Positions 16,097 through 46,490 of a stretch of 64,000 bases of DNA are shown piece by piece. The notes under the pieces were generated by a model. It ran no database searches and was not told where the DNA came from. It worked only from the letters and a program-made list of their open reading frames with translations. The first letter of the stretch is position 1; each line of letters starts with the position of its first letter. This DNA comes from Bacteroidales bacterium (GTDB taxonomy: Bacteria > Bacteroidota > Bacteroidia > Bacteroidales > UBA932): NCBI GenBank assembly GCA_017634595.1, contig JAGBNC010000036.1:62001-126000 (forward strand). The letters are read 5' to 3'. The position numbers were made by a program, and so were the translations under genes.

Positions 16097-16494
16097 AGTG
16101 GAGCTGGCGGGATTCGAACCCGCGTCCAAACAAAGCACCGAAAAGCTTTCTACACGCTTATTCTTCCTTTAATTGTCGGCGGCGGAATGAGGGAAGACGC
16201 CCTGGTCCGCAGCTTATCCTCTAAATCTTGACGGAGCCTGGAGGCGGCAGCTCCGCGCATCCGCTTTGAATGATACCCCTTGGTCCGGACATAAGCGGCT
16301 TAAAGCCGGAGGGATATACGTCAGTGCCGCAGCCTTGGCGACTCTGATTAATGCCTTAGCTCTTGGAGCTTAGCAAGCGTATGAATAGTTGTAGTTGCCT
16401 ACTAATTGTTCGACGATTGGGATTAACGGGCCAACCACCAACGCCCGGCGTGCTTACCTCCCGTTGTCAATGCTGTCAAAACCAAAACAGCCCC
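16097..16494 (-). ncRNA. ssrA: Transfer-messenger RNA (tmRNA, ssrA)
   Basis: Read on the minus strand the RNA starts GGGGCTG at 16494 and its 3' side ends CAGCTCC at 16106-16100. These pair over seven base pairs as the acceptor stem. The T-arm GGGTTCGAATCCCGCC is present. CCA is not encoded at 16098-16096. The tag frame resumes after TTAGTA at 16399: codons GGC AAC TAC AAC TAT TCA TAC GCT TGC TAA give GNYNYSYAC, stopping at 16370, just before a hairpin. The Gly resume codon fits Bacteroidota, but the end -Tyr-Ala-Cys differs from the usual -Leu-Ala-Ala. tmRNA with SmpB rescues stalled ribosomes and tags the product for proteolysis. Confidence 0.95.
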
Positions 16495-38323: not shown

Positions 38324-38490
38324 ATGCACACTATCGATTGTATTTGTTCCGGCAAAACGTGCCGGGTGACTGCATTCGCGAAATGGATAAACTGCTCACC
38401 GACACGCAGCACATCCTGGAATGGAACAGCGGAAACCACTTCAAGGATGCCGACATACGCACGGCAAAAGCATTCGCCTGGTGCTTCTAA
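38324..38490 (+). pseudogene. Possible gene remnant
   Basis: The frame reading LFRQNVPGDCIREMDKLLTDTQHILEWNSGNHFKDADIRTAKAFAWCF ends at 38490, overlapping the convergent AlkZ-related gene by 4 bp. It has protein-like composition but no start codon with a promoter and no family I recognise. It may be the tail of a decayed gene, or chance. Confidence 0.2.
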
Positions 38491-39188
38491 CCCAGCAGTT
38501 TCATAAGGAGCTTATCAGGGACATCTCCGCACACCCTGCGCACCGTCTGTTTAAGATAATCCAATGACTCTGACGGGGTTAAGTTAGATTTTAAAGAACG
38601 CGGGATATAACCGGGAAAAGGGAAATCCATACCCTCGAACAGAGCGTCCGGCGAGCAGAAACTGCTGCGCTGCCAGCCCGAATAACGCAAGTCTGCGCCC
38701 CTGTACACCCTGGTTATATCCCCAGTTACGACACGGGTCTGCATTTGAAGCCTTGCCAGCACAGAATCGGCAGCGCCCTTGTTGATACCGAGCAGATGCC
38801 TCACATCCGCCACGGTGATACTCCCCTGCTCCCGCATATAGTCAAGCACCTTCTGCTGCTCCGCTTTCGGTTGATATTTGGGTAAAGAACGCCGCCAGTT
38901 CATGATTTCCTTGTACACGGCCACGGTTGCGAAAGCAGCCTTACCGCCCCACAAGAACTTACCGTACGCCACGTCTCCACTTTGCACACAATCTATCTTC
39001 CAGTCCCACGGACCAAGATAATCATCATCAAACCATAGTTCCACAGGAGTATGCTCCTCAACTGAAAACCCCGGCAAAGGATTGACGAAAAAAGGAATCA
39101 GATGATACTCTTTAATGAGTTCAAGCATTGTCTCCCAGCTCCTTACAACTGGTGACGCGGTCTGTCCCTGTGTGCGGTTCAATGGCAT
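38487..39188 (-). CDS. AlkZ-related winged-helix protein
   Basis: 233 residues from ATG 39188; a TTG at 39194 lies in the U-tract of the upstream terminator. The opening VVRSWETMLELIKEYHLIPFFVNPLPGFSVEEHTP, the acidic WFDDDYLGPWDWKIDCVQSGDVAYGKFLWGGKAAFATVAVYKEIMNWRR, and a winged-helix part (KVLDYMREQGSITVADVRHLLGINKGAADSVLARLQMQTRVVTGDITRVYRG) match the Bacteroidota family I know as AlkZ-related. That family is distantly like the DNA glycosylase AlkZ but lacks its full C-terminal part. No catalytic QxQ motif is visible, so glycosylase activity is doubtful. It begins directly after a strong terminator, so its promoter is unclear. Confidence 0.65.
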   Translation of the reverse strand: MPLNRTQGQTASPVVRSWETMLELIKEYHLIPFFVNPLPGFSVEEHTPVELWFDDDYLGPWDWKIDCVQSGDVAYGKFLWGGKAAFATVAVYKEIMNWRRSLPKYQPKAEQQKVLDYMREQGSITVADVRHLLGINKGAADSVLARLQMQTRVVTGDITRVYRGADLRYSGWQRSSFCSPDALFEGMDFPFPGYIPRSLKSNLTPSESLDYLKQTVRRVCGDVPDKLLMKLLG

Positions 39189-39192
39189 AGGC

Positions 39193-39233
39193 AAAAAAAG
39201 ATCCCCGGCTTTGTAGTGTACTCCACCGGGGAT
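39193..39233 (-). terminator. Intrinsic terminator of the hypB-flavoprotein-hypA-DUF5692 operon
   Basis: On the minus strand ATCCCCGG (39233-39226) pairs perfectly with CCGGGGAT (39208-39201), followed by C and seven T. The T-tract ends 4 nt before the ATG of the next gene (39188). Confidence 0.88.
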
Positions 39234-39251
39234 TTTGATATTGTAATAAGA

Positions 39252-40343
39252 TTAGCTCATGTCAGCACGTGCAAGGGCATCCTTGTAGTACTTCTGGTTC
39301 ACGAATACATCCTCCTTGTAAGGGTTGATGTGACGCTTCCTGGACTGGACAATGATGTAGCACAGAGCCACAGCGTTGGTAATCAATGCAAGAGCGCTGA
39401 TTACAGTCATAGCTGTAGGATTGGCAGCAACTGTATCGACGGTTGTCCCGACGGCAGCGGCATCTCCGCCTGCGGCTGCATAGATCTGCTTGATAGTCTC
39501 AACTCCCTCGGGATACTGAACGGGAAGGGTAACCCAGTTGAACTTGAAGAAGCCGTCTTTGAAGACTTCCTGGAACAGAGGGAATACCTGTGCGAACATG
39601 CACCAGATAGCAAGAGTGTTGGCACGGTTCTGAATCCAGCCGCCACGGTTCCAAAGCAGAGCTGCGATGGTAGGAGCAAGAAGCAGGGCGATACCGCAAT
39701 ACCAGCTATGCGTAGGCAGGCAGTTGTAGGTATAAGCGAAGTTCCAGATATCATAAACCAAGATGTACACCCAGGTCATGTCGGCCCAGATCATGTCTTT
39801 CTTGTCCTTGGAAGGGAACACGTTCCACCATGCGGTCATACAGAAGATGTTGAGGATACCGGCAATGCCATTCATCACATTGTGCCAGCCGCCGTAGAGC
39901 CACACGCCCTCGCTGGAGAGCCACCACTTGTTCCAGCCCATGACGGCTGACTCGAAGTCGGAGACCACAGCAATAAGGATGTTGATAGCCACGATGATAA
40001 ACGGGAAAGGTTTGAACCAGTGCTTGGCTCCGATACCCCATTTGTACTTGATCATCATGAAGCCGATACATCCGGTAAGGGCTGCATAGAGCTTGGCATA
40101 GTGGAACCAGCCGTTCATGTACATGTGAGTCTGGTTCTTGAGTGCCCACTCTGCACCGGATGCTGCTCCGATAGCTATAGCCACGAAGTATGCTGTAAGT
40201 GCCAGAGGAACGGCAAAGAACATTATGCAGCCGCCTGCCTTGGTACGGCGTGCAAATTCATTGAGGAGAATGAGTCCGGCAAGGACTACCAGAAGCATTC
40301 CCCACTGTGCAAGGGCGTTAGGCCCATAAACTTGGAAAAACAT
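39252..40343 (-). CDS. DUF5692 family polytopic membrane protein
   Basis: 363 residues with about eight or nine hydrophobic segments and an unusually high count of Trp and Tyr in loops (EWALKNQTHMYMNGWFHYAKLYAAL, VMGWNKWWLSSEGVWLYGGWHNVMNG, WADMTWVYILVYDIWNFAYTYNCLPTHSWYCG). This is the pattern of DUF5692, a membrane family of anaerobes with no known function. It is the last gene before the terminator at 39193-39233. Conserved polar and His residues within the membrane region could bind a metal or a small molecule. Being encoded with HypA, HypB and an Fe-S flavoprotein suggests a redox or nickel link; this is inference. Confidence 0.8.
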   Translation of the reverse strand: MFFQVYGPNALAQWGMLLVVLAGLILLNEFARRTKAGGCIMFFAVPLALTAYFVAIAIGAASGAEWALKNQTHMYMNGWFHYAKLYAALTGCIGFMMIKYKWGIGAKHWFKPFPFIIVAINILIAVVSDFESAVMGWNKWWLSSEGVWLYGGWHNVMNGIAGILNIFCMTAWWNVFPSKDKKDMIWADMTWVYILVYDIWNFAYTYNCLPTHSWYCGIALLLAPTIAALLWNRGGWIQNRANTLAIWCMFAQVFPLFQEVFKDGFFKFNWVTLPVQYPEGVETIKQIYAAAGGDAAAVGTTVDTVAANPTAMTVISALALITNAVALCYIIVQSRKRHINPYKEDVFVNQKYYKDALARADMS

Positions 40344-40374
40344 AAATAATAAATATTGGTTTTAAATTAAGTGG

Positions 40375-40725
40375 TTACTTGGTCTGATATCGAACGGTCT
40401 TTCGATCTTTCAGAAGCGATGACACGGCCCATAAGGCAGTGACAGCTAAAGCCATGGGCACTCCCACGACCAGCATTTCATGCCACATGACTTCCCATCC
40501 GCCGGTCTGTCCAAGGGCGGTGAAAAAAGGATACTTCCAACTTAACTCTCCGTTGATTATATGGTCAATTATAAGCATAACGGAGCCTCCCCACAACATT
40601 TTTTCCAATGCAGGGACATTGCGTTTAAGAGCCGGAGCATCGGACTGTTTAATTGTTGCGGAGTTAAGCTTGCGGTAAACTGAAACCGCAGCAGCCTCTA
40701 CTAGAGGGACAATAAAACAACACAT
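40375..40725 (-). CDS. Small membrane protein, unknown
   Basis: 116 residues starting ATG 40725, 1 bp after the hypA stop. Hydrophobic segments: MCCFIVPLVEAAAVSVY, MLWGGSVMLIIDHIINGE and MLVVGVPMALAVTALWAVSSLL, with a polar stretch SWKYPFFTALGQTGGWEVMWHE between. No family is certain. The two adjacent Cys at positions 2-3 and the His in IIDHIINGE and MWHEML could be functional. It lies 31 bp before DUF5692 and is probably its membrane partner. Confidence 0.75.
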   Translation of the reverse strand: MCCFIVPLVEAAAVSVYRKLNSATIKQSDAPALKRNVPALEKMLWGGSVMLIIDHIINGELSWKYPFFTALGQTGGWEVMWHEMLVVGVPMALAVTALWAVSSLLKDRKTVRYQTK

Positions 40726-40726
40726 A

Positions 40727-41071
40727 TTATGTAACTTCTATTTCTTTGATTTCCACTTCGTTGCCACGAAGCAGCCAGGTGCTTTCACTGCCGCAGTGAG
40801 GACACTTTTTACCGTATTTTACGGTCTCATATTCGCCGGAACAAGCATCACAATGCGTTACGGCCGGTATGATGTTTATCCTCAACTCGCAGCCCTTCAG
40901 GAGTTCCTCCTTGTCGGCAGCCCAGCGCCAGCAGTCGGTAAGATACTCAGGGATAATGGTCGAGACTTCCCCTATGTTCATGACGACTGCCGAAACATGA
41001 CCGGCATGATTGCGCTCAGCGGCTTCCTTGACGTCGCGGATTATGTAAAAGACTATGCCTAATTCGTGCAT
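40727..41071 (-). CDS. hypA: Hydrogenase/urease nickel incorporation protein HypA
   Basis: 114 residues, exact family length. MHELGI at the N-terminus provides the nickel-binding His2 (and Glu3). The zinc site is two Cys pairs, HCDACSGEYE and KCPHCGSES. The middle strand VVMNIGEVSTIIPEYL is also standard. HypA hands Ni(II) to HypB and to the apo-enzyme during [NiFe]-hydrogenase (or urease) maturation. It is encoded 6 bp after the large flavoprotein gene and within the same operon as hypB, but no hydrogenase, urease or hypCDEF gene lies in the window. Confidence 0.95.
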   Translation of the reverse strand: MHELGIVFYIIRDVKEAAERNHAGHVSAVVMNIGEVSTIIPEYLTDCWRWAADKEELLKGCELRINIIPAVTHCDACSGEYETVKYGKKCPHCGSESTWLLRGNEVEIKEIEVT

Positions 41072-41077
41072 GGAGTT

Positions 41078-43903
41078 TTACTTCTTCTTGAAAAGTATCT
41101 TTCCCGTGCGCTTGATCATGTAGGGCAATATCCCGCTGAATTTGTCTTCCGATGTCCTCAGGTGACTTGCCTCGGGATGCACCCTGTGCAGATGTATCGC
41201 ATCGAATCCGCACTTGGTAGTACAGATGCCGCAGCCGATGCAGCGGTTCTCATCCACCACGGATGCGCCGCATGACAGACAGCGTGCCGTTTCCTTGCGC
41301 ACCTGCTCTTCTGTCAGAGTCCCGTGATACTCATGGAACTTGTCCACAGCCGGGCTTACGCCAGGATCCTGGCGGGAGGAATTATCGTAGGACTCTACAA
41401 GGATGTCTTTCTTGTCCAGCTCGATGAAGTCGCGGCGGTTGCGCCCTATGGTCATGTGGCCGTGCTGCACGAAGCGGTGCAGCGACTCGGCTGCCTCCTT
41501 TCCGGCGGCAATGGCGTCTATTGCGAATTTGGGACCGGTAAACACATCTCCGCCTACGAATATGTCGGGTTCCGCAGTCTGGTATGTAAGCTTGTCAGCA
41601 ACAGGATATACGCCACGGAAGAACTCCACCTTGGTATCTTTGAGCAGGTCTTTCAGGACTACGGTCTGGCCGATAGCAAAAATGACCATGTCGGCATCGA
41701 GCGTAATGAGTTCGTTCTCATCGTATTGGGGAGCAAATTTGTGGTCGGCATTGAACACCGACGTACACTTCTTGAATACGATACCGCTTACTTTGTCTTC
41801 GCCGAGCACTTCCTTCGGGCCCCAGCCCGGATTGATCACAACTCCGTCCTCACGGGCCTCGGCGCGTTCCTCAAGGGATGCGGGCATGATATCTTCGGTC
41901 TCCAGCGAGAGCATGGTGACCTCGGAAGCGCCACTGCGCATAGCCACACGTGCCGCGTCAATAGCGACATTGCCGCCGCCCACTACTACCACCTTGCCGC
42001 TCACTTTAACCTTTCCGCAGTTGGCATCGTGCAGGAAGTCGATGGCCGTCGTGGTACCGGGCAGAGTCTCGCCTGAGATACCGGGCAGACGGCCTCCCTG
42101 ACAACCGATAGCTACATAGAAGCCCTTGTAGCCCTGTTCGCGGAGTTGCGCAATAGTTATATCCTTGCCCACTTCTACGCCGGTCTTGATATCGACGCCG
42201 ATCTCTTTCATAATATCGATCTCAGCCTTGATGACATCTTTCTCCAGTTTGTAAGAAGGTATGCCGTAACGCAGCATTCCACCGGGCTCTTCGTTCTTCT
42301 CGAACACTGTGGGCTTGTATCCCATGGTAGCCAGATAGTAGGCGCAGCTCAGGCCTGCGGGGCCGCCGCCGATGATTGCTATCTTCTCTTCCCAACGGTC
42401 CTGCACATTGGAGCAGATGTTGACCTCGGGCACGAAACGAGTCTCAGCGTGCATATCCTGCTCGGCGATGAATTTCTTGACAGCATCGATGGCTATTGGC
42501 TGGTCTATCGTACCTCTGGTGCAGGCATCCTCGCAACGGCGGTTGCAGATACGTCCGCACACGGCCGGGAATGGATTCTCCCTCTTGATCAGCTCCAGTG
42601 CCTCTTTGTACTTGCCCTCGGCAGCCTTCTTAAGATAGCCTTGGACGGCAATATGCGCCGGGCAGGCGGTCTTGCAGGGAGCGGTACCGGTAGGATAGCA
42701 GTTGATGCGATTGCGGTCGCGGTAGTCTTCATTCCACTTCTCCGGCCCCCATTTGACTGCGTCGGGAAGCTCCTGCTTAGGATAGGTCTGCTCTCCGTGC
42801 TTGGTGCAGAGTTTCTGCCCAAGCTTCACGGCCCCTGCAGGGCAGTACTCCACGCAGCGCCCACAAGCCACGCACTTGGATTTCTCGACTTCAGCCACGT
42901 AGGCACTGCGGGACATATTGGGCGTATTGAACAACTGCGAAGTACGCAGTGCGTTGCAGATCTTGACGTTGCAGTTGCAGATGGCGAATATCTTGCCCTC
43001 GCCGTCGATATTGGTAATCTGATGCACGAATCCATGATCCTCAGCCTTCTTGAGGATAGCCATGGCCTCATCGTACGTGATGTCGTGGCCGCGGCCTGTT
43101 TCTCTCAGATAATCAGCCATGTCGCCCACGCCGATGCACCAGTCGCGGTAGTCGTCGGCACAGCCTTCGTCGAGTTTCTTGCGCCCGTAGCGGCAGGAGC
43201 AGATACCCACGCCGATATGGCCCTCATAACGTTTGAGCCAGTATGAAATGTGCTCTATATCAACGGACTGATTCTCCAGTGAGATAGCTTTCTCCACCGG
43301 AATGACGTGCATACCTATGCCTGAACCTCCCATAGGGACCATGGGCGTAATCTTCTCCAACGGGAGGAAAGTCATTCGCTCGAAGAACATGGCCAGTTCG
43401 GGATGCTTGTCCATAAGGTCGGTATTCATATTGGTATATTCTGCCGAGCCGGGGACGAACATAGGCACCCAATACTCCCGGTCTTCCCTGTTGTAGGTCG
43501 TGCCGGGCACGGGACCGTCTTTGGTATATTTGTCACCGTAGTCGTATTCCAGAAGACCGAAATACGCTATCTTGTCGAGCAAGGCATCGAATGCCTCGTC
43601 AGTAGATGCGTAGTGCTTTTTGTGGTTCCATTCCACCAGTTCTTTGTAGGGATGGTGCTCACGGACAGTGAGGGGCTTTTTGGATACTACATCCAGGAGC
43701 AGATCCAGAGAGGCCTCCCTCGTTATGGGGTCCATCTCATCCTCGAAAATACACGCGAGGCCCCAGTATTCGGGGTCGTCTGTGGTCATTTTGATCTTTC
43801 CGGGAATACGGTCCGTTACTTTCCTTACGAATTTGATAATCTTGGGATTGGGATTCTTGTCGCCCTTATGCTTAGGGACGAACTTGCTTGACATTTCAGG
43901 CAT
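41078..43903 (-). CDS. Multi-cluster Fe-S flavoprotein, glutamate-synthase-small-subunit (GltD/NfnB)-like with N- and C-terminal ferredoxin parts
   Basis: 941 residues. Order: an N-terminal domain of ~340 residues with CSCR (C235, C237), C248, C256, CNC (C309, C311) and C316; a ferredoxin motif CVACGRCVEYC (344-354); a GltD-type Fe-S domain (CKTAC 410-414; C449, C453, C457, C461); an FAD Rossmann fold (GGGPAG 512-517, then EEPGGMLRYGIPSYKL); an NAD(P) Rossmann fold (VVVGGGNVAIDAARVA ~639-653); IFVGGDVFTGPKFAIDAIAAGKEAA; and a C-terminal ferredoxin CxxC...CIGCGICTTKC (875-898). GltD-type proteins pass electrons between NAD(P)H, FAD and ferredoxin. It has no glutamate synthase partner here; hypA and hypB flank it. 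Confidence 0.85.
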   Translation of the reverse strand: MPEMSSKFVPKHKGDKNPNPKIIKFVRKVTDRIPGKIKMTTDDPEYWGLACIFEDEMDPITREASLDLLLDVVSKKPLTVREHHPYKELVEWNHKKHYASTDEAFDALLDKIAYFGLLEYDYGDKYTKDGPVPGTTYNREDREYWVPMFVPGSAEYTNMNTDLMDKHPELAMFFERMTFLPLEKITPMVPMGGSGIGMHVIPVEKAISLENQSVDIEHISYWLKRYEGHIGVGICSCRYGRKKLDEGCADDYRDWCIGVGDMADYLRETGRGHDITYDEAMAILKKAEDHGFVHQITNIDGEGKIFAICNCNVKICNALRTSQLFNTPNMSRSAYVAEVEKSKCVACGRCVEYCPAGAVKLGQKLCTKHGEQTYPKQELPDAVKWGPEKWNEDYRDRNRINCYPTGTAPCKTACPAHIAVQGYLKKAAEGKYKEALELIKRENPFPAVCGRICNRRCEDACTRGTIDQPIAIDAVKKFIAEQDMHAETRFVPEVNICSNVQDRWEEKIAIIGGGPAGLSCAYYLATMGYKPTVFEKNEEPGGMLRYGIPSYKLEKDVIKAEIDIMKEIGVDIKTGVEVGKDITIAQLREQGYKGFYVAIGCQGGRLPGISGETLPGTTTAIDFLHDANCGKVKVSGKVVVVGGGNVAIDAARVAMRSGASEVTMLSLETEDIMPASLEERAEAREDGVVINPGWGPKEVLGEDKVSGIVFKKCTSVFNADHKFAPQYDENELITLDADMVIFAIGQTVVLKDLLKDTKVEFFRGVYPVADKLTYQTAEPDIFVGGDVFTGPKFAIDAIAAGKEAAESLHRFVQHGHMTIGRNRRDFIELDKKDILVESYDNSSRQDPGVSPAVDKFHEYHGTLTEEQVRKETARCLSCGASVVDENRCIGCGICTTKCGFDAIHLHRVHPEASHLRTSEDKFSGILPYMIKRTGKILFKKK

Positions 43904-43921
43904 ATAATTATGTGGAATTTG

Positions 43922-44593
43922 TTATTGTTTCCAGATACTAACTTGGTCCAGAAGCCAGGATGCGAATGCATCCACTCCCTCGCCGGTACGAGCACAGATG
44001 GGTATGACTTCAGCGTGGGGATTGCGCATCCGCACGTACTCCTTGCATTTTCCGAGATTGAAATCAAAATACGGCAGCACATCTATCTTATTGACTACCA
44101 CCACGTCGCATACTGAGAACATCAGAGGATACTTCAACGGTTTGTCGTCACCCTCGGGCACCGACAGTATCATAGCGTTGCGCACCGCACCGGTATCGAA
44201 TTCCGCCGGACATACCAGGTTGCCGACATTCTCAAGGATCACCAGGTCAGTACCGTCGAGGTCAAGATTGTCAAGGCCCTGGCGGGTCATCTCGGCATCC
44301 AGATGGCACATGCCGCCGGTATGCAGCTGAATGGACTGAATGCCGGTCGCTTCCTTGATTTTGATTGCATCCACATCGCTGTCGATATCGGCCTCCATGA
44401 CCGCTATTCGCAGCTTGTCCTTCAGCAGGTTAATAGTTTTAATAAGTGTGGTTGTTTTGCCGCTGCCGGGCGAAGACATCAGATTCAGAAGGTACACGCC
44501 CTTGCTTTTCAATTCTCCACGCAGCCTTTCGGCATCTTTGTCGTTGTTCTCGAAGACACTCTTCTTGATCTCGACTATTTTGACTTTATCCAT
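43922..44593 (-). CDS. hypB: Hydrogenase nickel incorporation GTPase HypB
   Basis: 223 residues. Walker A is LLNLMSSPGSGKTTTLIKT. Later motifs are VMEADIDSDVDAIKIKEATGIQSIQLHTGGMCHLDAEM and LVILENVGNLVCPAEFD, with the Cys and upstream His/Asp of the G-domain metal site. VVVNKIDVLPYFDF is the NKxD guanine motif. There is no His-rich N-terminal storage tail. HypB dimers use GTP to release nickel to HypA and the target enzyme. It is 11 bp after the small membrane protein gene and 18 bp before the flavoprotein gene. Confidence 0.95.
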   Translation of the reverse strand: MDKVKIVEIKKSVFENNDKDAERLRGELKSKGVYLLNLMSSPGSGKTTTLIKTINLLKDKLRIAVMEADIDSDVDAIKIKEATGIQSIQLHTGGMCHLDAEMTRQGLDNLDLDGTDLVILENVGNLVCPAEFDTGAVRNAMILSVPEGDDKPLKYPLMFSVCDVVVVNKIDVLPYFDFNLGKCKEYVRMRNPHAEVIPICARTGEGVDAFASWLLDQVSIWKQ

Positions 44594-44604
44594 TAAAGGT
44601 CTGA

Positions 44605-45036
44605 TTAAATCTCTTCAAGACTGGGGACGACAACGGGCAGATCAGACGATGCAGCGCTCTCTCCTACAGACAAAATCTCATACACGATATAGTGCTGCAT
44701 GCCTCTCCAAGGCAACATTCCGTTGTATTCTTTGTATTTAAGCTCGACGTTTTTGCCACTGCACCTCATCAGGGAGTCGGCCACGGCCTTGTCGACAACC
44801 GAGAAATTGAACTCGTTGGACTGGATACCGGAGCCCTGCTTGGCACCCTTGAATCCGGTCTGTATCAAGCGGCCTTCATATGTTTTCCATACCCAGCCTT
44901 TGTACACTATCTGATTGAGTTCGCCGGCCTTGACGCCCTCGCCAAGTACGAAATAAAACTTAAAATACACAAATGCCGCGGCTGCAAGCAGCAGAATGGC
45001 CAAAATAAAACTGACAACCTTGGTGCTAGTCTTCAT
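44605..45036 (-). CDS. Single-pass membrane-anchored protein, unknown
   Basis: 143 residues from ATG 45036; a longer frame to 45099 overlaps the divergent promoters. One N-terminal membrane segment (VVSFILAILLLAAAAFVYFKFYFVL) is followed by a beta-rich soluble part (VYKGWVWKTYEGRLIQTGFKGAKQGSGIQSNEFNFSVVDKAVADSLMRCSGKNVELKYKEYNGMLPWRGMQHYIVYEIL). This resembles a short conserved Bacteroidales family that databases sometimes mislabel as 6-phosphogluconate dehydrogenase; no dehydrogenase motif is present. It is the first gene behind the promoter at 45057-45064 and so leads the hyp operon, although it may have no part in its chemistry. Confidence 0.75.
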   Translation of the reverse strand: MKTSTKVVSFILAILLLAAAAFVYFKFYFVLGEGVKAGELNQIVYKGWVWKTYEGRLIQTGFKGAKQGSGIQSNEFNFSVVDKAVADSLMRCSGKNVELKYKEYNGMLPWRGMQHYIVYEILSVGESAASSDLPVVVPSLEEI

Positions 45037-45056
45037 AAGTATTACAATTAATCTCA

Positions 45057-45064
45057 CAAATATA
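45057..45064 (-). promoter_or_regulatory. -7 box (TATATTTG) of the six-gene hyp/DUF5692 operon
   Basis: Perfect TAnnTTTG on the minus strand, 20 nt before ATG 45036. With the terminator at 39193-39233 it frames a transcription unit of about 5.8 kb. Confidence 0.6.
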
Positions 45065-45075
45065 ATAATTTGTTT

Positions 45076-45083
45076 TAAATTTG
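45076..45083 (+). promoter_or_regulatory. -7 box (TAAATTTG) of the SGNH-SGNH-MBOAT operon
   Basis: Perfect TAnnTTTG, 9 nt before ATG 45093, divergent from the hyp operon promoter. Confidence 0.55.
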
Positions 45084-45092
45084 CCCTCTGAT

Positions 45093-46490
45093 ATGGCAAG
45101 ACATAAGGTTTTAATCTTTATATTTTCAGTTTTCGCACTTCTTGCCGGGATAAGTTACCTCTTCCCGGAAGAAGGTGTAAACTTGTTGGGCACTACTCTC
45201 AACTTCCCTACAATCAAGGAAATAAGCGCATCGCTTTTCAAGTCTGAAAAGGAAGCGGCAGGTCCTTCACCGGAGGAATTACTACAGCAGCGCATGGCCG
45301 ACATCAGGCAGGCGGAGCAAGACCGCTTCGAGTCATATTTTAACGAGAATCCCGCCAGAATTCATTTCCCCGATTCGGACATAAGCCTATTCGATCCTTT
45401 CTTCAAGTCGCTTGACAATGCCCGCAACAAGAAAGTCCGCATCCTTCACTACGGCGACAGCCAGCTGGAGGAGGACCGCATATCCTCTACCATCAGAGCA
45501 GGGCTTCAGAGCAAATTTGGCGGCGGTGGTCCGGGACTGCTTCCTTTCGGGCGTCCATATTACACACTCTGCGTATCGGAATCATCGACGGCCAACCTGA
45601 GCAGGGCCCTCGTTTTCGGCGAGGGAGGACGCAGGAGCGGCGGCAGATACGGCATCATGGGGCAGTGCGCCAGGATGGACACAAGTGTATATACCACAGT
45701 TAGTTCCGTCAAGAGCAACCGTAGCCCGAGCCGTCATTTCCAGCGTCTGACTCTCATGGCCGGCAACGTGGGCGGAAGCCTCAACGTAAAGTGCAACGGC
45801 AAACAGTACAAGCTCTCCCCCGTCACCGACCCTTCCGGCGTAGGACGCATAGTTGTAGATCTGCCCGACAGCAGCACCTCGGTGCGCTTCTCCGCCTGGG
45901 GCAGCGCCGACATATATGGCATGCAGCTCGACGATACGCTGGGCGTAAGCCTCGACAACATCCCCATGCGCGGGTGCTCCGGCACCGTTTTCACCCGGAT
46001 GAATTCCGCCCAGATAAAGGATTTCGTCGAAGAAGAGAACGTGAAGATGATAATCCTGCAGTTCGGCGGCAATTCAATGCCCTACCGCAAGACCCCAAAA
46101 GCTATATCCGAGTACAAAACTTCCGTTGAGAATCAGATACGGCACATACGTTCTCTGGCACCGGGAGCGGCCATCCTCTTCATTGGCCCGTCCGACATGT
46201 CGGTCAACGTTAAAGGCAAGATGGTCACCTATCCCCATCTTCCCATGATGGTAGATTCGCTCAAAGCGGCCGCCAACAACACTGGAGCGGCTTACTGGGA
46301 CTTGTACCAGGCCATGGGCGGCAACGGATCAATGGTGGAATGGGTAAAGGCCAGACCTTCGCTTGCCGGCACAGACTATGTTCACTTCACGCCACGCGGA
46401 GCTGAAGCAATGGGCAACATGCTTTTTGAGTCCCTGATGCTTTACTACGACTACTACTGCTGGCGTAAAAAAGGCGATTCGCAGCGATGA
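45093..46490 (+). CDS. SGNH/GDSL-type protein, probable polysaccharide O-acetylation partner (1)
   Basis: 465 residues from ATG 45093; an in-frame start 12 bp upstream falls by the promoter. One N-terminal membrane anchor (VLIFIFSVFALLAGISYLF). The SGNH core has block I ILHYGDSQLEEDR (Gly-Asp-Ser), block III MIILQFGGNSMPYR (the GxN element) and block V TDYVHFTPRGAEAMGNMLFESL (Asp-x-x-His). An inserted beta domain lies between blocks I and III. Such anchored SGNH proteins work with MBOAT proteins to move acetyl groups to or from envelope polysaccharides, as AlgJ/AlgX or PatB do with AlgI/PatA. The next two genes are a second SGNH and an MBOAT, overlapping or 4 bp apart, which supports this. 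Confidence 0.82.
   Translation: MARHKVLIFIFSVFALLAGISYLFPEEGVNLLGTTLNFPTIKEISASLFKSEKEAAGPSPEELLQQRMADIRQAEQDRFESYFNENPARIHFPDSDISLFDPFFKSLDNARNKKVRILHYGDSQLEEDRISSTIRAGLQSKFGGGGPGLLPFGRPYYTLCVSESSTANLSRALVFGEGGRRSGGRYGIMGQCARMDTSVYTTVSSVKSNRSPSRHFQRLTLMAGNVGGSLNVKCNGKQYKLSPVTDPSGVGRIVVDLPDSSTSVRFSAWGSADIYGMQLDDTLGVSLDNIPMRGCSGTVFTRMNSAQIKDFVEEENVKMIILQFGGNSMPYRKTPKAISEYKTSVENQIRHIRSLAPGAAILFIGPSDMSVNVKGKMVTYPHLPMMVDSLKAAANNTGAAYWDLYQAMGGNGSMVEWVKARPSLAGTDYVHFTPRGAEAMGNMLFESLMLYYDYYCWRKKGDSQR

Follow-up and report, generated by a model that had tools for sequence, protein, structure and literature searches.

The closest described relative of the system considered here is the isoprene-induced operon of Acetobacterium wieringae, whose product IsrA is a 901-residue oxidoreductase with flavin adenine dinucleotide (FAD) and iron-sulphur (Fe-S) centres and a putative isoprene reductase (Kronen et al., 2023; PMC10134865). 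This five-gene isr operon encodes IsrA, two HypA proteins, one HypB and the ferredoxin ENOG4105DQ9. Across 988 IsrA homologues, the same paper gives co-occurrence values of 0.73 for HypA, 0.56 for HypB and 0.40 for DUF5692, notes that [NiFe]-hydrogenase and hypCDEF are lacking, and puts forward a site of six cysteines as the place where nickel is bound. Terpenes are proposed there as substrates, bifurcation is discussed, and an oleate hydratase gene is described as adjoining the A. woodii homologue. Strain Y, also a carrier of this operon, reduces isoprene and butadiene and does not reduce ethene, propene or fumarate (PMC9765523); because of this pattern, we take conjugated dienes to be the substrate class of IsrA. 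Here we describe a related operon in a 64-kb stretch of DNA (64,000 nt, hereafter the window) from a Bacteroidales bacterium (GCA_017634595.1), in which hypB, the gene for a 941-residue flavoprotein, hypA, and the genes for a 116-residue protein (p116) and for a DUF5692 protein follow one another in this order on the minus strand.

Our preferred explanation, to which we assign a probability of roughly 0.45, is that the operon specifies a nickel-dependent IsrA-type reductase of conjugated dienes, matured by HypA and HypB, whose substrate in the gut is most likely a conjugated polyunsaturated fatty acid. The combination of genes is itself already published. What is new here is the co-occurrence of HypA with IsrA across genomes, the invariance of six cysteines, the presence of DUF5692 without IsrA, and a linkage to the family of the P. 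acnes linoleate isomerase (PAI); the conjugated-fatty-acid reading is put forward as a new proposal.

Assignment of the flavoprotein to the IsrA family

By its architecture and by the printed cysteine positions, the flavoprotein belongs to the IsrA family, a described family whose biochemical role is predicted. It shows the following features of IsrA clade 9: a length near 900 residues, FAD/NAD(P) and DPD-like 4Fe-4S domains, two CxC motifs, the six-cysteine cluster V, and hypA and hypB as neighbours. The Cys180/182 and Cys254/256 pairs printed for IsrA (PMC10134865) correspond to C235/237 and C309/311 of the window protein: both pairs are shifted by 55 residues and keep their 74-residue spacing. 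The first ferredoxin motif of IsrA (289-300) corresponds to C344-C354 at the same offset. C256 and C316 complete the six-cysteine site, further conserved cysteines lie at 344-354, 410-461 and 875-898, and the FAD/NAD(P) domain spans residues 507-801. In a count over 123 aligned IsrA sequences, to which no motif filter was applied, the six cysteines and H294 were invariant (123/123) and H199 was replaced by arginine in 13. The listed ferredoxin-type cysteines are kept in all sequences that reach them, six sequences being without the C-terminal end.

A preliminary description of this DNA had spoken of a possibly undescribed membrane-coupled redox module. Because the flavoprotein has the same architecture as IsrA, the module is better regarded as a member of a described family, and the epithet no longer applies, as a 2023 paper had already reported HypA, HypB and DUF5692 as neighbours of IsrA homologues (PMC10134865). 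The window operon shares with A. wieringae ISORED-2 and strain Y (PMC10134865, PMC9765523) a flavoprotein of about 900 residues with FAD/NAD(P) and Fe-S domains, two CxC motifs and the six-cysteine site, and with the isr operon the presence of HypA and HypB where no [NiFe]-hydrogenase is found. Unlike the isr operon, the window operon has one HypA rather than two and adds DUF5692 and p116; neither a second HypA gene nor a separate ferredoxin gene corresponding to ENOG4105DQ9 was found between 39252 and 45036.

HypA and HypB in a genome with no detected hydrogenase

The two chaperone-like proteins resemble the [NiFe]-hydrogenase maturation system in that both carry the corresponding Pfam and NCBIfam signatures (Table 1). 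They differ from it in that HypA scores below the TIGR00100 cut-off and in that their genome yields neither a hydrogenase large subunit nor HypD. Searches of that genome (2.59 Mb in 36 contigs, 97.28% complete) returned no [NiFe]-hydrogenase large subunit (PF00374), no urease alpha subunit, no LarA and no HypD (PF01924); HypC, HypE, HypF, carbon monoxide dehydrogenase and other nickel enzymes were not searched for. The only HypA in the genome is the operon copy. The earlier remark that hydrogenase, urease and hypCDEF are missing beside the operon thus extends to the genome for the large subunit, urease alpha and HypD. Its suggestion that HypA and HypB serve a different nickel protein is now the most likely account. 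In a survey of carriers, for which 34 of 81 carrier loci were submitted, HypD was found in none of 20 Bacteroidales and in four of 14 Firmicutes.

A comparison across genomes indicates which protein is served. IsrA was detected in 69 of 392 sampled genomes from the order of a Butyrivibrio genome. HypA above its curated cut-off is present in 68 of these 69, as against seven of 80 genomes drawn at random from the 323 without IsrA in the same sample (Fisher p 5e-33, not corrected for kinship). Because HypA follows IsrA in this way, HypA and HypB probably serve IsrA. HypD is missing from 29 of the IsrA genomes; HypA is present in 28 of these, and in 27 it lies no more than 3.5 kb from IsrA.

DUF5692 is distributed differently. 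In the window's own order it was matched in 13 of 247 genomes, strongly in six and more weakly in the others, and IsrA (E 1e-100) was found in only two, both among these 13. The remaining 11, which include four of the six strong matches, show no IsrA, and DUF5692 is therefore disfavoured as the nickel target. Some IsrA copies may be missed in these scans because few candidates were scored per genome (three in the window's order, two in the Butyrivibrio order). Taken together, the co-occurrence, the DUF5692 distribution and the invariant six cysteines and H294 favour IsrA as the recipient of nickel; nickel in IsrA is what we infer from this genomic support. The preliminary description is thus borne out in part, as regards another nickel protein and the linkage of DUF5692, and is not borne out where it had named DUF5692 as the possible recipient, since HypA tracks IsrA and most DUF5692 genomes of the order have no detected IsrA.

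Two loci, L092 (13137-14478) and L100 (10615-11968), carry a tandem pair of HypB genes after isrA-hypA.

Conservation of the gene neighbourhood

A scan of species genomes for relatives gave 191, of which the best 80 were kept as loci; among these best 80, the titles of many close relatives name the rumen, other parts of the ruminant gut or horse faeces. The set comprises 67 Bacteroidales loci (66 of the 80, and L022), 41 of them with full flanks, that is at least 3.5 kb on both sides, and 14 Firmicutes loci, 11 with full flanks. In the full-flank Bacteroidales loci, hypA is present in 41/41, hypB in 40/41, DUF5692 in 39/41 and p116 in 36/41; the corresponding figures for the Firmicutes are 9/11, 6/11, 6/11 and 0/11. 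The recurrent linkage of DUF5692 that the preliminary description had asked about is therefore real. Since DUF5692 lies on the opposite strand in six of the 41 Bacteroidales loci, its linkage to IsrA survives rearrangement.

In Subdoligranulum variabile, hypB-isrA-hypA-DUF5692 lie on a sequence whose record describes it as a mobilizable plasmid (L182; OY725877.1, 266,993 bp), which gives a hint of horizontal transfer. In another locus (L175; G516:C13) isrA is duplicated in tandem, with one copy adjoining hypA.

Linkage to a linoleate isomerase family and the candidate substrate

To consider the substrate, we turned to 40 Firmicutes IsrA loci (37 genomes) with wider flanks, which were hand-picked from 97 matches and are not a random sample. 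A flavoprotein of the PAI family adjoins the IsrA genes in seven of them, from six genomes. These PAI-type proteins match PDB 2b9w with E values of 4.6e-110 (L160), 7.8e-63 (L162) and 3.1e-21 (L170). The PDB table names 2b9w a 'putative aminooxidase'; we take it to be the P. acnes linoleate isomerase. According to PMC3390286 and PMC12254105, no other linoleate isomerase has had its crystal structure solved. A tblastn search with six PAI-type proteins, which covered the window and 180 partly overlapping loci (2.4 Mb), recovered the family in the same seven loci only. The PAI-type proteins form three groups that are 25-31% identical to each other where compared, and their IsrA partners occupy three places, hence about three lineages, in a FastTree phylogeny that includes only relatives of the window protein and whose support values were not read.

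The most compact arrangement is that of L160 (3435-8816; Firmicutes), where isomerase, hypB, hypA and isrA stand head to tail on the same strand, the called gaps being 3, 0 and 12 bp, and where IsrA branches in the same part of the tree as the Bacteroidales clade. A linoleate-conjugating isomerase beside a member of a conjugated-diene reductase family would follow the logic of biohydrogenation. The conjugated linoleic acid (CLA; rumenate) reductase of Butyrivibrio fibrisolvens is a membrane-associated activity of a gut anaerobe that reduces a conjugated diene, with NADH at 1:1 (PMC4478896, PMC12254105); the likeness is one of activity only. For the window, the fatty-acid reading is carried over by homology: no PAI homologue was found beside the reductase or elsewhere in the 64 kb, the rest of its own genome not having been searched.

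In the mechanism that we infer for the substrate, the electron donor and the roles of DUF5692 and p116, the operon would be a self-contained unit of maturation factors and enzyme. In the N-terminal third of the flavoprotein, the six-cysteine site would receive nickel from HypB and HypA. Electrons from NAD(P)H would enter at FAD and pass along a chain of [4Fe-4S] clusters to the nickel/iron-sulphur site, at which a conjugated diene would be reduced. In gut bacteria this diene would most likely be a conjugated polyunsaturated fatty acid, and the reaction the step of biohydrogenation in which the double bond is reduced. At the membrane, DUF5692 (joined by p116 in the Bacteroidales) may serve as a partner, either in handling the lipophilic substrate or in docking the enzyme. 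A broader claim, which we regard as doubtful, is that IsrA modules throughout gut Bacteroidales and the Butyrivibrio order use nickel to hydrogenate conjugated polyunsaturated fatty acids and so catalyse the reduction in biohydrogenation. In some lineages the conjugated substrate would then come from a PAI-type isomerase; in others DUF5692 might itself isomerize or handle the substrate in the membrane.

Several results weigh against the reading of the operon as a HypAB-matured reductase of conjugated fatty acids. The substrates reported for an IsrA-bearing strain are small hydrocarbons. PAI homologues are absent from the window and from all 80 best relative loci, and of the 40 wider Firmicutes loci 33 have flanks without one; relatives of PAI may also act on other substrates. 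A sequence for the Butyrivibrio CLA reductase was reported in 2007 (cited in PMC4478896) and may be unrelated. As for the chaperones, at E 0.001 HypA matches 30 of the 80 IsrA-less genomes, 23 of these under the cut-off, and the co-occurrence counts are not independent events. Moreover, for 29 of the 97 IsrA copies in the 69 genomes, HypA is absent from the surrounding 3.5 kb, copies at contig ends being included in the count. This adjacency count used 111 HypA matches of at least 76 bits; 16 weaker ones, two of them marked as above the cut-off, were dropped, and none lies near any IsrA copy. Two IsrA loci without HypAB (L107 and L109), both in HypD-positive genomes, had raised the idea that a hydrogenase system can stand in for dedicated chaperones. 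The 29 copies without adjacent HypA fall into 21 in HypD-positive and eight in HypD-negative genomes, and the idea that dedicated HypAB are needed only where there is no hydrogenase system failed over the 97 copies, where the adjacency of HypA to IsrA showed no dependence on HypD (Fisher p 0.18 per locus and 0.69 per genome).

Were the proposal correct, it would explain why HypA and HypB genes occur in bacteria that have no hydrogenase. Nickel enzymes are few, and hydrogenation of a plain carbon-carbon double bond is not known to us from any of them. Rumen biohydrogenation of plant fatty acids shapes the fat of milk and meat. As described in 2015, the reductase could not be sought in genome databases (PMC4478896); the isomerase-IsrA linkage offers a candidate reductase and, in L160, a small gene array. 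Within one open-access library, no article that we found connects IsrA or HypAB with fatty-acid biohydrogenation, and the main text of PMC10134865 has no mention of linoleic acid, isomerase, rumen or gut.

In six of six loci (L162, L163, L166, L170, L171 and L172), the isomerase homologue is paired with a helix-turn-helix protein of 333-355 residues. The one example scanned matched the NCBIfam IS481 transposase model below its cut-off, and the protein is perhaps a regulator of transposase origin.

DUF5692 and p116

The structural model of DUF5692 is a multi-helix bundle (predicted local distance difference test score, pLDDT, 84.8), for which comparison found no recognizable relative. An alignment of 26 sequences contains invariant Trp, Tyr, His and Cys residues, and these polar and aromatic positions suggest a ligand site. 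Membrane-bound linoleate isomerases have been reported from Butyrivibrio and Lactobacillus reuteri (PMC12254105). DUF5692 is present in three of the seven PAI-linked loci and occurs also where there is no isomerase homologue; because it is found both with and without one, it is not simply a substitute for the isomerase. The conserved elements of p116 (Table 1) come from an alignment of 13 sequences. In three Bacteroidota loci with no IsrA in their flanks (L026, L027 and L028), a shorter and distant DUF5692-like protein of about 275 residues is encoded beside a TetR-type regulator.

Alternative explanations

The operon could also encode an IsrA-family nickel reductase for other conjugated hydrocarbons, such as terpenes, isoprene or other plant compounds, with fatty acids irrelevant. 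Isoprene does induce the A. wieringae operon, strain Y reduces isoprene and butadiene (PMC9765523), and terpenes are the substrates proposed by Kronen et al. (PMC10134865). The linkage of the linoleate isomerase family to IsrA in about three lineages, and the oleate hydratase that adjoins the A. woodii homologue (PMC10134865), speak against this alternative, which we consider unlikely.

A second possibility is suggested by the fold of the flavoprotein. Its predicted structure has a mean pLDDT of 66.7, with values below 50 at 317-413 and 877-921 and of 52-62 at 290-320. The Foldseek matches listed, to Nfn, DPD and GltD proteins, extend over some 430-510 columns; among them, Nfn-ABC, Stn and GltD structures resemble the C-terminal half most closely. 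With these flavoproteins (PDB 9n5u, 9bov, 8oh5 and 5jca) it has in common the C-terminal FAD/NAD(P) and DPD-like Fe-S domains. The flavoprotein might thus be a bifurcating or transhydrogenase-like carrier of the Nfn/Stn type that passes electrons to a partner rather than acting as a terminal reductase, HypA and HypB maturing something else; bifurcation is also discussed by Kronen et al. (PMC10134865). Unlike the Nfn, Stn and GltD proteins, however, it has an extra N-terminal third with the six-cysteine site, and its operon encodes HypA and HypB and no Nfn partner subunit. None of the nickel enzymes searched for in the genome was found, and HypA tracks IsrA, which makes the carrier alternative quite improbable.

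A third reading, in which nickel resides in DUF5692 and the flavoprotein supplies it with electrons, would fit the 39 of 41 Bacteroidales loci with DUF5692 near IsrA and the invariant His and Cys in the bundle, but is very improbable given the 11 of 13 order genomes with DUF5692 and no IsrA (four among the six strong matches), a Latilactobacillus curvatus plasmid with DUF5692 (L181:6926-7855) and no IsrA or HypAB within 7 kb, and the 16 of 40 Firmicutes IsrA loci (one cut at a contig end) that have hypA and no DUF5692 among their nearest genes.

Operon layout and neighbouring features

The conserved operon is real, as observed earlier: six minus-strand open reading frames (ORFs) are separated by gaps of 11, 18, 6, 1 and 31 bp (Table 1). 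The preliminary description had treated all six as one unit. The 143-residue first ORF, however, has a counterpart near IsrA in only one of the 41 full-flank Bacteroidales loci (L036; it also occurs in L038) and is probably incidental to the tight set of five. Neither the 143-residue protein nor p116 has a Pfam or NCBIfam match at E 0.01.

Table 1. Features of the operon and its boundaries (window coordinates).
Feature	Position	Strand	Evidence
Bacteroidetes-type -7 box TATATTTG	45057..45064	-	sequence match present
143-residue protein, membrane-anchored	44605..45036	-	first ORF of run; no family match
hypB, 223 residues, GTPase nickel chaperone, without N-terminal CCxxC	43922..44593	-	TIGR00073 239 bits (cut-off 121); PF02492 71.6 bits
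IsrA-like Fe-S flavoprotein, 941 residues	41078..43903	-	PF07992, PF14691, Fer4; printed IsrA CxC positions
hypA, 114 residues, MHE start and two CxxC	40727..41071	-	PF01155 107 bits; TIGR00100 73.7 bits (cut-off 88.1)
p116, 116-residue predicted membrane protein	40375..40725	-	M-x-C start and MLWGGS..DH..GE core conserved
DUF5692 membrane protein, 363 residues	39252..40343	-	PF18948 434 bits
Intrinsic terminator hairpin	39193..39233	-	-17.7 kcal/mol, z -3.6, then seven T

The promoter box is present, on what we take to be the Bacteroidetes-type -7 consensus; as TAnnTTTG occurs 38 times in the window against 25 expected, the box is weak evidence alone. The terminator is strong, none of 200 shuffled sequences folding equally well, and it is missing from the output of a consensus scan for terminators that allowed loops of 3-8 only.

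Divergent TAnnTTTG boxes lie at 45057-45083, between the operon and a GDSL-lipase-like gene at 45093. Beyond the terminator, a gene on the same strand (38487-39161) encodes an AlkZ-related protein (PF24741). Elsewhere in the window, ARAGORN identified a transfer-messenger RNA gene (16098-16494) with the tag GNYNYSYAC, which appears unusual.

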